Made by a program: the position numbers and the translations under genes
Shown: positions 2,528 through 6,370 of the stretch, in pieces
Layout: the number at the start of each line of letters is the position of its first letter
How positions within the stretch are numbered: the first letter of the stretch is position 1
Notes under the pieces: model-generated
Seen by the model: the letters and a program-made list of their open reading frames with translations, nothing else
The model's database searches: none
Told to the model about the DNA's origin: nothing
From: Oscillospiraceae bacterium
GTDB taxonomy: Bacteria > Bacillota_A > Clostridia > Oscillospirales > Oscillospiraceae
Length of the DNA: 6,370 bases
NCBI GenBank assembly: GCA_017396725.1
Contig: JAFQLA010000118.1
Coordinates: forward strand, 1-6,370
Reading direction: 5' to 3'

Positions 2528-2860
2528 ATGGAGATCATTTCGAAACGGATAGAACGGAATCTGCTTTTGGAATTGAAGGGGGAATTGGATCACCACGGCG
2601 CCAGGTACGCCATGGAGGAGATCGCCCGTGAGGTGGACGCGGCGCTGCCGCTGCGTCTGGTGCTGGATTTTTCCGGCATTACCTTTATGGATAGCTCGGG
2701 GATCGCCGTGCTGCTGCGGACCCAGCGGCGGCTGCAATGCTACGGCGGCAGCATGCTTTTGTGCGGTGTGCCGCCGCAGGCAGGACGGATTCTGGAGATC
2801 GCGGGAGTCGGGCGGCTGATTCACATGAAAAAGGAGAAGGACTATGGAATTGATCAATGA
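2528..2860 (+). CDS. spoIIAA: Anti-sigma-F factor antagonist (STAS domain)
   Basis: This 110-residue STAS-domain protein, in its unphosphorylated form, binds SpoIIAB in the forespore and frees sigma-F. The conserved phospho-acceptor loop reads FMDSSGIAV at residues 53-61. By analogy with B. subtilis, Ser57 (second of the pair) is phosphorylated by SpoIIAB and dephosphorylated by SpoIIE. The length matches the family (about 115 residues). The ATG has a good RBS, AAGGAG (2515-2520), 7 nt upstream. Its last 17 bases overlap the spoIIAB start, so the two are probably made in a coupled way. It is the first gene of the three-gene sigma-F operon. It could only be confused with other STAS antagonists such as RsbV; the neighbours settle it. 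Confidence 0.94.
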   Translation: MEIISKRIERNLLLELKGELDHHGARYAMEEIAREVDAALPLRLVLDFSGITFMDSSGIAVLLRTQRRLQCYGGSMLLCGVPPQAGRILEIAGVGRLIHMKKEKDYGIDQ

Positions 2861-3284
2861 AATGCAGCTGACCTTTGGCAGCCGCAGTATCAATGAAGGC
2901 TTTGCCAGATGCGCTGTGGCGGGTTTTGCCGCGCAGCTGGATCCCACGCTGGAGGAGCTGGGCGATATCAAAACGGCGGTGAGCGAGGCGGTGACCAATG
3001 CCATCGTCCACGCCTATCCCGATACCATCGGGAAGATCACTCTCCGCGGGCGGATCTACGAGGGGAACATTCTTGAGATCGTGGTGCGGGACGCAGGATG
3101 CGGTATTGAGGATGTGGAAAAGGCGAGAGCGCCGCTTTTTACCACCGGGGGTGACGAGCGCAGCGGCATGGGATTTACCATTATGGAGAGCTTTATGGAT
3201 GCCCTTCGCATCCGCACCAAGGTGGGGCGGGGCACCACGGTGACCATGCGCAAAAAGATCGCGCTTCGCGCCAAGCGCCCATGA
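2844..3284 (+). CDS. spoIIAB: Anti-sigma-F factor, serine kinase
   Basis: A 146-residue GHKL-fold protein that holds sigma-F inactive and phosphorylates SpoIIAA using ATP. The N box is SEAVTNAIVHAY (47-58), with Glu48 as the likely catalytic base and Asn52 the Mg/ATP ligand. The G1 box is DAGCGIEDV (83-91). The G2/ATP-lid region is GGDERSGMGFTIMESFMD (102-119). The start overlaps the end of spoIIAA, with an RBS AAGGAG (2831-2836) inside that gene. Its stop shares an ATGA with the sigF start. The length agrees with B. subtilis SpoIIAB (146), and all binding motifs look intact. Confidence 0.95.
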   Translation: MELINEMQLTFGSRSINEGFARCAVAGFAAQLDPTLEELGDIKTAVSEAVTNAIVHAYPDTIGKITLRGRIYEGNILEIVVRDAGCGIEDVEKARAPLFTTGGDERSGMGFTIMESFMDALRIRTKVGRGTTVTMRKKIALRAKRP

Positions 3285-3985
3285 GGACGGAACTCAAAGA
3301 GCGGCTTTTGCAGGCGCAGCAGGGTGACGGAGAGGCGGAAAGCTGCCTGCTGGAGGAAAACGCGGGGCTGATCTACGGCATCGTGCGGCGGTACTTGGGC
3401 CGCGGGGTGGAGGCGGAGGATCTCTATCAGCTGGGCTGCATCGGTTTTATCAAAGCGGTGCGGGGGTTTGATTTTACATACGGAACGGAGTTTTCCACTT
3501 ATTCCGTTCCCAAAATAGATGGGGAGATCCGCCGCTATTTTCGGGATAACGGAACGATAAAAGTGAGTCGCAGCATAAAGAGTAATGCGATATTGCTTTA
3601 CAGATGCAAAGAGGAGCTGGAGGCCCGTTTGGGGCGGGAAGCCACCTTGAGTGAGCTCCAAACAGAGTCCGGACTTTCCATGGAAGACATCCTGCAGGCG
3701 GAAGGCGCCTCCCGTGAGGTAAGCTCTATGCAGGAGGAAGTCAGCGAGGGGATGACGCTGGAAGGTACCCTTTCAGACGGTACTACAGAAGATGACCTTT
3801 TGGAAAAAATCACATTGCGGGAAGCCATTGGCATGCTGGAAGAACGGGAAAAGATCACGGTGCTCCTTCGCTACTACCGGGGATTTACTCAAAGTCAGGT
3901 GGCGCGGGTGCTGCGGGTTTCCCAGGTGCAGGTATCGCGGTTGGAGAAGCGGGCAATGGAGCGGCTGCGGCAGTATTTCCGCTAG
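3281..3985 (+). CDS. sigF: RNA polymerase sporulation sigma factor F
   Basis: A 234-residue sigma-70 family factor directing the first forespore-specific transcription. Region 2 is seen at 46-90, with EDLYQLGCIGFIKAVRGFD and the promoter-melting stretch FSTYSVPKIDGEIRRYFRDN. Region 3 follows at about 100-145 (KVSRSIK onward). Region 4.2 is the helix-turn-helix at about 203-230 (TQSQVARVLRVSQVQVSRLE). It is slightly shorter than B. subtilis sigma-F (255), mainly at the N-terminus. The ATG overlaps the spoIIAB stop by 4 nt and has no clear Shine-Dalgarno, so translation probably depends on ribosomes finishing spoIIAB. Its last 101 bp overlap the end of a convergent gene. No U-tract terminator follows, and spoVA genes do not follow here. 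Sigma-G is a close relative, but the operon with spoIIAA and spoIIAB identifies sigma-F. Confidence 0.94.
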   Translation: MRTELKERLLQAQQGDGEAESCLLEENAGLIYGIVRRYLGRGVEAEDLYQLGCIGFIKAVRGFDFTYGTEFSTYSVPKIDGEIRRYFRDNGTIKVSRSIKSNAILLYRCKEELEARLGREATLSELQTESGLSMEDILQAEGASREVSSMQEEVSEGMTLEGTLSDGTTEDDLLEKITLREAIGMLEEREKITVLLRYYRGFTQSQVARVLRVSQVQVSRLEKRAMERLRQYFR

Positions 3986-4739
3986 GCTCGAAATAGGAAG
4001 GAGCCTGAAATTCCGTCATATACTTCCAATGGCGCTTGGGCATGAAGCTCATGCGGCAGCGGGGGTTATCCCGCTCGCGGATGGCAACGGTATCGTAAAA
4101 CCGCTTCCAGAGGAGGCGGAAAGAGGCTTCCTCCGCGTCCGGCGCGGCCATTTGAAAATCCTGCAGCGGCACGATGCGGGAGGTACCTGCTGCGTAAAAA
4201 AGGGCCTCGCAATGGGTGCGGTCGTAGATAAAGAAGGTCTCGTTATGGTAGCGGGAGCAGAAGTGGTGGCGCAGCATGGGAAGAACGCGGTTATTGGGTT
4301 CGATCTCGCTGCCAAGCACGCCGTTGAACTCGGAAAAACGGACAAAGCCGCGGTAATGCTCTGTTTCGGTGTAGAGATTGCGCAATGCCTTTCGGATGGG
4401 AAGATAGGTCTCCTCTGTGAGGTTGGAAAGAAGCGGCGCGCCGCAGCGATAGAGTTTGCGGATAAAGCGGTAAAGGACAAGCTCCTTTTCCGGCATATGG
4501 GTAAGGAAAGCCTGCCGCAGGAGCCGGCAGGCTTTGGGTGAGAGCTTGTAAATGCTGCGGTAGATCCGCTGGGAGTTTTCCCATTTGGTGATGACCGTGC
4601 GGACGGGAAAGAGGGAAATGGTCTCCGCGTCGGGGGTGATATCCACGGGATTTTCCTTTTCCGTATAGCTCATAAAAACACAGCACAGAAAGCCTTCAAA
4701 GGTGCCGTCATATGTGTATAAGATATCTTTCCATGCCAT
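3885..4739 (-). CDS. DUF4130-type putative DNA repair protein, partner of the radical SAM protein
   Basis: A 284-residue protein resembling the TIGR03915/DUF4130 family, which is regularly encoded next to the putative DNA modification/repair radical SAM protein. In some proteobacteria this family is fused to a UdgX-like uracil-DNA glycosylase. Its biochemical role is not established; a part in repair or processing of damaged bases is inferred from those links. Seen here: the N-terminal YDGTFEGFLCCVF (10-22), the central NNRVLPMLRHHFCSRY (149-164) and the C-terminal NPRCRMSFMPKRHWKYMTEF (225-244). The family's conserved part ends at about residue 244. Residues 245-284 are an Ala/Pro-rich tail whose last 33 codons, including the stop, are antisense to the sigF end, so the tail is probably not functional. 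The start has an AGAGG RBS 8 nt upstream. It follows the radical SAM gene by 15 nt. Confidence 0.82.
   Translation of the reverse strand: MAWKDILYTYDGTFEGFLCCVFMSYTEKENPVDITPDAETISLFPVRTVITKWENSQRIYRSIYKLSPKACRLLRQAFLTHMPEKELVLYRFIRKLYRCGAPLLSNLTEETYLPIRKALRNLYTETEHYRGFVRFSEFNGVLGSEIEPNNRVLPMLRHHFCSRYHNETFFIYDRTHCEALFYAAGTSRIVPLQDFQMAAPDAEEASFRLLWKRFYDTVAIRERDNPRCRMSFMPKRHWKYMTEFQAPSYFEPSGNTAAAAPLPASPTAIPAPGKPAAPAPPDFE
3984..4006. other. Small hairpin after sigF without a U-tract
   Basis: AGGCTC (3984-3989) and GAGCCT (4001-4006) form a 6-bp stem with an 11-nt loop, starting in the sigF stop codon. No T-run follows on either strand, so it is a weak candidate for termination or mRNA end protection. 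Confidence 0.25.
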
Positions 4740-6023: not shown

Positions 6024-6149
6024 TCAGCGGGCGTAAGCGCGGCGGGAAGATCTCTTGGCAGGGCGTTCCAGCCAATCGATAAGGCGGAACATCTGAGATA
6101 CACCTGCGGCAATACCCATAACGATGAAAGTCATACTCCAGAAACCCAT
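6024..6149 (-). CDS. 41-residue single-span membrane protein, first gene of the SOS operon
   Basis: A small gene I do not recognise. The product begins MGFWSMTFIVMGIAAGVSQM, where residues about 2-20 form one short hydrophobic span. An amphipathic stretch (FRLIDWLERP, 21-30) and a strongly basic tail (six Lys/Arg in the last ten or so residues, ending RRAYAR) follow. The positive-inside rule places the tail in the cytoplasm. It is well supported as a gene: a perfect AAGGAGG (complement at 6158-6164) lies 8 nt before the ATG, it is first behind a strong promoter with LexA boxes, and a closely spaced gene follows. By position it resembles small SOS-induced membrane inhibitors of cell division (SidA, YneA), but it shows no sequence similarity I can point to. 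It could also be a membrane anchor for the repair proteins or mainly a leader for coupled translation. Confidence 0.75.
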   Translation of the reverse strand: MGFWSMTFIVMGIAAGVSQMFRLIDWLERPAKRSSRRAYAR

Positions 6150-6157
6150 AACAGAAA

Positions 6158-6164
6158 CCTCCTT
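6158..6164 (-). promoter_or_regulatory. Ribosome binding site of the 41-codon gene
   Basis: AAGGAGG on the reverse strand, 8 nt before the ATG at 6149. It is the strongest ribosome site of the operon and the main evidence that the small gene is translated, rather than a 61-codon frame that overlaps it. Confidence 0.8.
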
Positions 6165-6173
6165 GGAAGAAAT

Positions 6174-6187
6174 CGAACATTTATTCT
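6174..6187. promoter_or_regulatory. LexA-like box 1 (weaker)
   Basis: CGAACATTTATTCT agrees at 11 of 14 positions with the Gram-positive LexA/DinR consensus CGAACRNRYGTTYG; the left half is perfect. It covers about +1 to +14 of the leftward transcript. Its centre is 29 bp from box 2. Confidence 0.5.
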
Positions 6188-6193
6188 ATTTGC

Positions 6194-6222
6194 AGTATAT
6201 ATCGAACAAGTGTTCTTGTCAA
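6194..6222 (-). promoter_or_regulatory. Sigma-A promoter of the SOS operon
   Basis: Read leftwards, a perfect TTGACA (6222-6217) and TATACT (6199-6194, 5/6) are separated by the ideal 17 bp. Initiation should fall near 6187. The LexA box at 6203-6216 lies entirely inside the spacer, so LexA binding would block RNA polymerase. Confidence 0.85.
6203..6216. promoter_or_regulatory. LexA box 2 (strong)
   Basis: CGAACAAGTGTTCT matches 13 of 14 positions of CGAACRNRYGTTYG, with perfect arms GAACA and TGTTC around a 2-bp centre. It lies between the -35 and -10 of the leftward promoter, the classic place for LexA repression. Confidence 0.85.
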
Positions 6223-6227
6223 GTGGT

Positions 6228-6249
6228 AAATCGAAATTTTGTTCGATTT
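6228..6249. promoter_or_regulatory. LexA-like box 3 within a 22-bp inverted repeat
   Basis: CGAAATTTTGTTCG (6232-6245) agrees at 11 of 14 consensus positions; the right half is perfect. Outer bases extend the symmetry to AAATCGAA (6228-6235) and TTCGATTT (6242-6249). It lies upstream of the leftward -35 and about 50 bp upstream of the rightward -10, so it could influence both genes. Confidence 0.5.
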
Positions 6250-6328: not shown

Positions 6329-6370
6329 ATGCACGACTTCTGTGAAAGATATATCGCGGCGAGAAAAAAA
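6329..6370 (+). CDS. Start of a rightward gene, possibly a UvrD/PcrA-like helicase (3' end outside window)
   Basis: Only 14 codons are visible: MHDFCERYIAARKK. A GTGAGGT ribosome site (6312-6318) lies 10 nt upstream, and an extended -10 promoter precedes it. The ERYxxARxx opening recalls, from memory, the N-terminus of clostridial UvrD/PcrA-type helicases just before their Q motif. A shared LexA control region would suit a repair helicase. Fourteen residues are too few to decide: a helix-turn-helix regulator start is also possible. That a gene starts here is fairly safe; its identity is not. Confidence 0.45.
   Translation, partial: MHDFCERYIAARKK

Follow-up and report, generated by a model that had tools for sequence, protein, structure and literature searches.

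The window analysed here, a stretch of 6,370 nucleotides, carries on its reverse strand a small ORF that starts with ATG (ORF list of the window) and encodes the 41-aa product MGFWSMTFIVMGIAAGVSQMFRLIDWLERPAKRSSRRAYAR. Upstream lie promoter elements interspersed with LexA-type boxes, and two genes for putative DNA repair proteins follow downstream (Table 1). The divergent gene at the window end is presumably the start of a gene for a UvrD/PcrA-type helicase; a GAGSGKT motif was found in the divergent ORF at 19 of 29 loci. Elsewhere in the window, near-identical terminator-like hairpins (AAAAAGAGTGAGTTG...CAACTCACTC) were seen at 867-905 and 1555-1596, each after one of two successive genes; the latter appeared in the terminator list, the former was recognized by eye. 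Three consecutive ORFs at 2528-3985 resemble, again by eye, an anti-anti-sigma factor, an anti-sigma kinase and a sporulation sigma factor. The end of the DUF4130 gene is located inside the opposite-strand ORF 3281-3985 (overlap 3885-3985), and past the TIGR03915 match, which covers residues 8-244 of 284, its product has a tail that is rich in Ala and Pro and in part antisense to that ORF.

Table 1. Features of the small-ORF locus in the window (dG, Shine-Dalgarno energy)
Feature	Position	Strand	Evidence
Small ORF, 41 codons, single hydrophobic span and basic tail	6024..6149	-	Family conservation, selection
Shine-Dalgarno sequence of the small ORF, AAGGAGG (+ strand CCTCCTT)	6158..6164	-	Letters of the window; spacer to ATG 8 nt
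GAATAAATGTTC, a weaker LexA-type box immediately after the -10	6175..6186	-	Letters; box at about the same place in relatives
Promoter TTGACA-17-TATACT	6194..6222	-	Promoter scan, 11/12 positions; best scoring of four in the window
LexA-type box GAACACTTGTTC, perfect GAACN4GTTC, in the spacer between -35 and -10	6204..6215	-	Letters
Third, weak LexA-like element GAAATTTTGTTC (+ strand letters)	6233..6244	.	Letters
Putative DNA repair radical SAM protein, TIGR03916	4755..6011	-	634 bits, cut-off 343.5
DUF4130 / TIGR03915 putative DNA repair protein	3885..4739	-	210 bits, cut-off 112; Shine-Dalgarno dG -5.8
Divergent gene, cut by the window end	6330..6370	+	By eye, first 14 residues similar to the N-terminal ends of the divergent ORFs of relatives

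The small peptide consists of a hydrophobic span (approximately residues 4-22), a juxtamembrane LIDWLERP and the basic tail. Its hydropathy reached a maximum of 1.59 (19-residue window, from residue 6), and its net charge was 0 over residues 1-20 and +6 from residue 29 on. A hydrophobic span was likewise present in 31 family members, with net charges of -1 to +1 ahead of the span and +2 to +7 after it. Under the positive-inside rule, this charge distribution suggests an N-out/C-in topology with a cytoplasmic tail. The AlphaFold model, a single helix of residues 2-39 (mean pLDDT 76, pTM 0.34), was little informative. No family was matched in an NCBIfam scan of the peptide, and nothing exceeded the cut-off in Pfam; the Pfam model ATPase_gene1 (E 0.05, under its own cut-off) was read as generic membrane-helix likeness, and hits of a PDB profile search to potassium-channel helices (E 0.15-0.41) and to another chain (0.88) were dismissed as chance. 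Over 29 small ORFs (window and relatives) the mean Shine-Dalgarno dG was -10.5. The initial annotation had proposed a real small membrane gene, and the AAGGAGG, the single span and the basic tail that it named are all present in the letters of the window. The small ORF is almost certainly a translated gene.

A single-sequence search returned two close homologues of the peptide, the window's own sequence not being among the matches listed. Among the best 80 of 185 radical SAM loci from public genomes, which were the ones kept, four had a similar ORF directly upstream of the radical SAM gene. A first profile (seven sequences) was run at E <= 0.01 against 400 genomes from the bacterial family to which an Oscillibacter MAG belongs and matched 34 of them, and a second profile (31 rows) matched 28 of the same 400 genomes at E <= 0.001; the 28 members form part of the second profile, so that their matches with it are by construction, and this search scored at most 18 candidates per genome, a limit to which the absence from 372 genomes holds. 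Six genomes matched by the first profile (G057, G102, G150, G222, G349 and G371) were discarded; their matches were partial (E 6e-4 to 0.0087), three contained stops, and the second profile gave no match in them at E <= 0.001. Loci L087, L088, L113 and L114 were omitted from the locus reading as non-members, and L085 and L086 never entered it. An order-wide search with the second profile (394 genomes) gave six matches, all in genomes already known from the family search. In all 28 carrier genomes a copy was found directly before the radical SAM gene, which bears out the proposed tie of the small ORF to this repair gene. The radical SAM gene itself scored above the cut-off in 143 of the 400 genomes, 115 of which were without the peptide at E <= 0.001.

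A protein search with the profile yielded 193 matches; among the 120 listed, seven were named, always as 'hypothetical protein', 113 were nameless, and no functionally named relative was found. The ORF had been called unannotated, which needs correcting in that protein databases do contain relatives. Pooled pN/pS was 0.32 in the frame of the small ORF versus 0.49-1.70 in the other five frames, as determined from 11 disjoint pairs with a nucleotide identity of at least 60%, out of 29 sequences; the window entered none of these pairs because its relatives are too distant. Divided by part, codons 1-30 gave 0.25 and the tail 0.51, while for many more distant pairs, which are highly diverged, the ratio approached or exceeded 1. 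Residues M1 and G12 were invariant and P30 almost so in the 31 rows, while all three were invariant in 40 hand-picked rows from the profile matches. Conservation of the reading frame had been chosen beforehand as a check that might refute the initial annotation; the frame was kept in 28 further operons and was under purifying selection. By sequence, the small ORF belongs to a conserved family that bears no functional name. A chance ORF, as short and hydrophobic frames may suggest, was rejected on account of this conservation and the frame-specific selection, and we regard it as practically negligible.

The four promoter matches in the window correspond approximately to the chance number (mean of shuffles 3.6), and TTGACA was present in 29 of 29 upstream regions of small ORFs. 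With the strict box pattern the window has a single box; its two weaker boxes stand 29 nt either side of the perfect one. Boxes were detected within 110 nt upstream of 25 of the 29 small ORFs (window and 28 relatives) compared to a mean of 0.42 and a maximum of 3 in shuffles, in agreement with the earlier assignment of the small ORF as first in an operon behind a LexA-type promoter. By that pattern, no box was found upstream of the small ORF at L082, L099, L105 and L116. Fifteen of the 29 small ORFs had two or more boxes, and the 29-nt spacing recurred in 14 of those 15. A GTTC half-site no more than 35 nt before TTGACA was observed in 23 of 29 cases (GAAC accepted for the window) and was missing in six. 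Boxes also occurred ahead of radical SAM genes that lack the peptide (in 30 of 76 loci overall and in 15 of the 21 closest). The lexA gene was present in all eight genomes tested, and GAACN4GTTT was found in four of the eight lexA promoters, the strict box form in none. The ORF divergent from lexA resembled secG by eye, and was unlike yneA, in six of these eight genomes (L190-L197); L194 and L197 carry other genes. Genome-wide, GAACNNNNGTTCGA occurred once in genome G293, at the small-ORF promoter (reversed control 10), and four times in genome G003, one of them at the small-ORF promoter (reversed control 29). The plain GAACN4GTTC was not enriched (32 vs 61 and 32 vs 45 in the reversed control), and the case for LexA therefore rests on position and conservation. 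On these grounds, control of the small-ORF operon by LexA appears highly probable.

The start of the radical SAM gene in the window lies 12 nt after the small ORF and is devoid of a Shine-Dalgarno sequence (dG -2.4). Across the 29 operons, gaps of 1-12 nt separated the radical SAM gene from the small ORF; at L102 and L116 the start codon used for this measure lies 3 nt ahead of the aligned one. When the start codon was chosen as the best one in a range of 30 nt, a Shine-Dalgarno sequence at dG <= -5 was found at the radical SAM gene in 0 of 29 operons with the small ORF (window included) versus 73 of 76 relatives without it; L018, L041 and L080 have neither the small ORF nor a strong Shine-Dalgarno sequence at this position. 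At dG <= -4, two of the 29 operons with the small ORF scored. The mean energy with the small ORF was -1.5, like random positions (background -2.4); without it, the mean was -9.0 for 68 loci, and -10.4 when only the 21 closest were counted. The DUF4130 start, treated with the same leniency, reached <= -5 in 24 of the same 29 operons (mean -6.5; -8.7 over 67 loci without the small ORF). Both sequence features of a coupled gene pair, the short gap and the missing Shine-Dalgarno sequence on the second gene, were therefore found, and the 0 of 29 indicates that the small ORF probably has a second role in cis as the ribosome entry point. We thus infer that termination-reinitiation coupling of the small ORF to the radical SAM gene is quite likely. 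Presence and absence of the small ORF amounted to only three changes on a quick radical SAM tree, and the tree gave one (supported branches) to three (all) independent contrasts, which are too few for a test. At L034, L043, L054, L056, L063 and L075, an S24-peptidase-like ORF (similar to the LexA C-terminus by eye) precedes the radical SAM gene, with 12-133 nt between its end and that gene.

Furthermore, the search revealed 18 additional peptide matches (E <= 0.001) in 12 of the 28 carrier genomes and none in the other 372 genomes. Of the 16 stand-alone loci that we examined, 13 belong to these 18 matches and three (L121, L126, L129) were matched by the first profile alone. A radical SAM gene was absent from the fetched stretch of all 16, and none of the 16 copies had a LexA-type box. 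Phage-family neighbours were identified at seven stand-alone loci (L104, L115, L119, L120, L123, L129 and L130) and comprised an integrase, a DNA methyltransferase, an ssDNA annealing protein, a RecE-associated protein, a replication initiation protein and repressors; the scan included nine neighbours, one without a match, and covers seven of the 16 loci. These loci may represent a prophage setting, as judged from the neighbours alone, genes of this kind occurring on other mobile elements too. One stand-alone relative had no PHROG match; a search of the phages collection with one stand-alone relative gave no match, and a single-protein query of viral contigs returned no relative. A five-row alignment yielded four loci in viral contigs, of which L186, L187 (its peptide identical to that of L186) and L188 look like family members by eye, and L189 proved to be a longer unrelated frame. 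In two genomes, at L118 (small ORF at 4001 after reverse complement) and L127 (198-287), a 29-30-aa relative of the peptide is situated upstream of an acyl-CoA/amino-acid condensing enzyme (named by eye). Since these 16 stand-alone copies lack a nearby radical SAM gene and a LexA-type box, and seven of them lie beside phage-type genes, the peptide likely has a function of its own.

Small membrane proteins of the SOS response offer points of comparison. The new clostridial counterpart of SidA, YneA or TisB that the initial annotation suggested may exist as regards function. SidA of Caulobacter is described as a 29-aa inner-membrane division inhibitor that is induced through LexA and acts on FtsW (PMC4211646). 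Compared by description, the present peptide is likewise a tiny, predicted inner-membrane protein, with LexA-type boxes in place of the LexA induction of SidA, but differs in that a repair gene follows, apparently coupled. YneA of B. subtilis, an SOS-induced membrane protein blocking division, needs its extracellular LysM domain (PMC13396833); in contrast, the peptide of 41 residues has a short basic tail, predicted to be cytoplasmic, and neither a LysM nor any second domain was found in it by the NCBIfam and Pfam scans. SosA of S. aureus is a further SOS-induced membrane protein of a Gram-positive bacterium that blocks division (PMC6851548), and TisB of E. coli is an SOS membrane toxin (PMC11575346). 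Bicistronic designs place a short first cistron ahead of a target gene (PMC5995908), whereas the arrangement here is natural, lies behind LexA-type boxes and shows selection on the peptide itself. DUF4130 has been presented as an enzyme predicted to be related to mutagenesis or repair, in association with SplB-like radical SAM proteins and uracil DNA glycosylase (PMC3765255); the same radical SAM/DUF4130 pair lies downstream here, and the available text of that source names no small ORF. It was the only report on DUF4130 or TIGR03916/TIGR03915 found in an open-access search, and nothing related was found in the open-access literature on SOS-induced small membrane proteins of Clostridia or on Oscillospiraceae and LexA.

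The reading that we favour, at a probability of about 0.4 from these sequence data, is that the small ORF, under LexA control and coupled in translation to the radical SAM gene, encodes a membrane effector that may be a brake on division. After DNA damage, the small inner-membrane protein would be produced first. In cis, ribosomes ending on the small ORF would go on to the radical SAM gene 1-12 nt downstream, so that, for want of its own Shine-Dalgarno sequence, the repair enzyme would hardly be made without the peptide. Acting in trans from the membrane, the peptide would most likely slow division or envelope growth once induced by damage. This part is modelled on SidA and YneA, which act through FtsW; the target assumed here is a guess, and no link of the peptide to FtsW or to division emerged among the sequence data gathered. 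By analogy, a brake on division would deserve about half of the confidence that we place in a function of the peptide's own.

The close rival to this reading treats the peptide as an anchor in the membrane, or a subunit, of a radical SAM/DUF4130 repair complex, the coupling serving to fix the stoichiometry. Both the copy that lies beside the radical SAM gene in each of the 28 genomes and the putative translational coupling would be accounted for in this way. Against it stand 16 stand-alone relatives whose fetched stretch contains no radical SAM gene (13 matched by the second profile at E <= 0.001) and 115 of 143 genomes in which that gene occurs without a detected peptide, and we hold an anchor or subunit to be possible though rather doubtful. 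A mere translation leader, in which the small ORF serves the repair gene without its own Shine-Dalgarno sequence and the peptide sequence is immaterial, would agree with the Shine-Dalgarno contrast (0 of 29 versus 73 of 76 at dG <= -5). It appears unlikely in view of the purifying selection on amino acids, strongest in codons 1-30 (pN/pS 0.25; tail 0.51), the (nearly) invariant M1, G12 and P30 and the existence of stand-alone relatives. Still less probable is an SOS toxin of the TisB type that depolarizes the membrane and induces dormancy, as the LexA-type promoter and a short, hydrophobic peptide with a charged end might suggest. In TisB the charges are distributed along the helix, whereas here they sit in a tail. 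The gene context differs as well: a strong Shine-Dalgarno sequence and a repair gene behind the small ORF speak for routine translation.

If the coupling of the small ORF to the radical SAM gene is true, a nameless 41-codon gene controls the synthesis of a DNA-repair enzyme. Two predictions follow from the sequence, namely that translation of the radical SAM gene would depend on the small ORF and that the peptide alone would alter division or the membrane. It is conceivable, if on balance doubtful, that in a clade of gut-associated Clostridia a damage checkpoint has become hard-wired to a repair enzyme: without its own ribosome-binding site, the SOS radical SAM gene would be translated only via a tiny membrane brake, with a module common to prophage-like elements. 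In such a hard-wired checkpoint, the brake would precede each burst of the repair enzyme.
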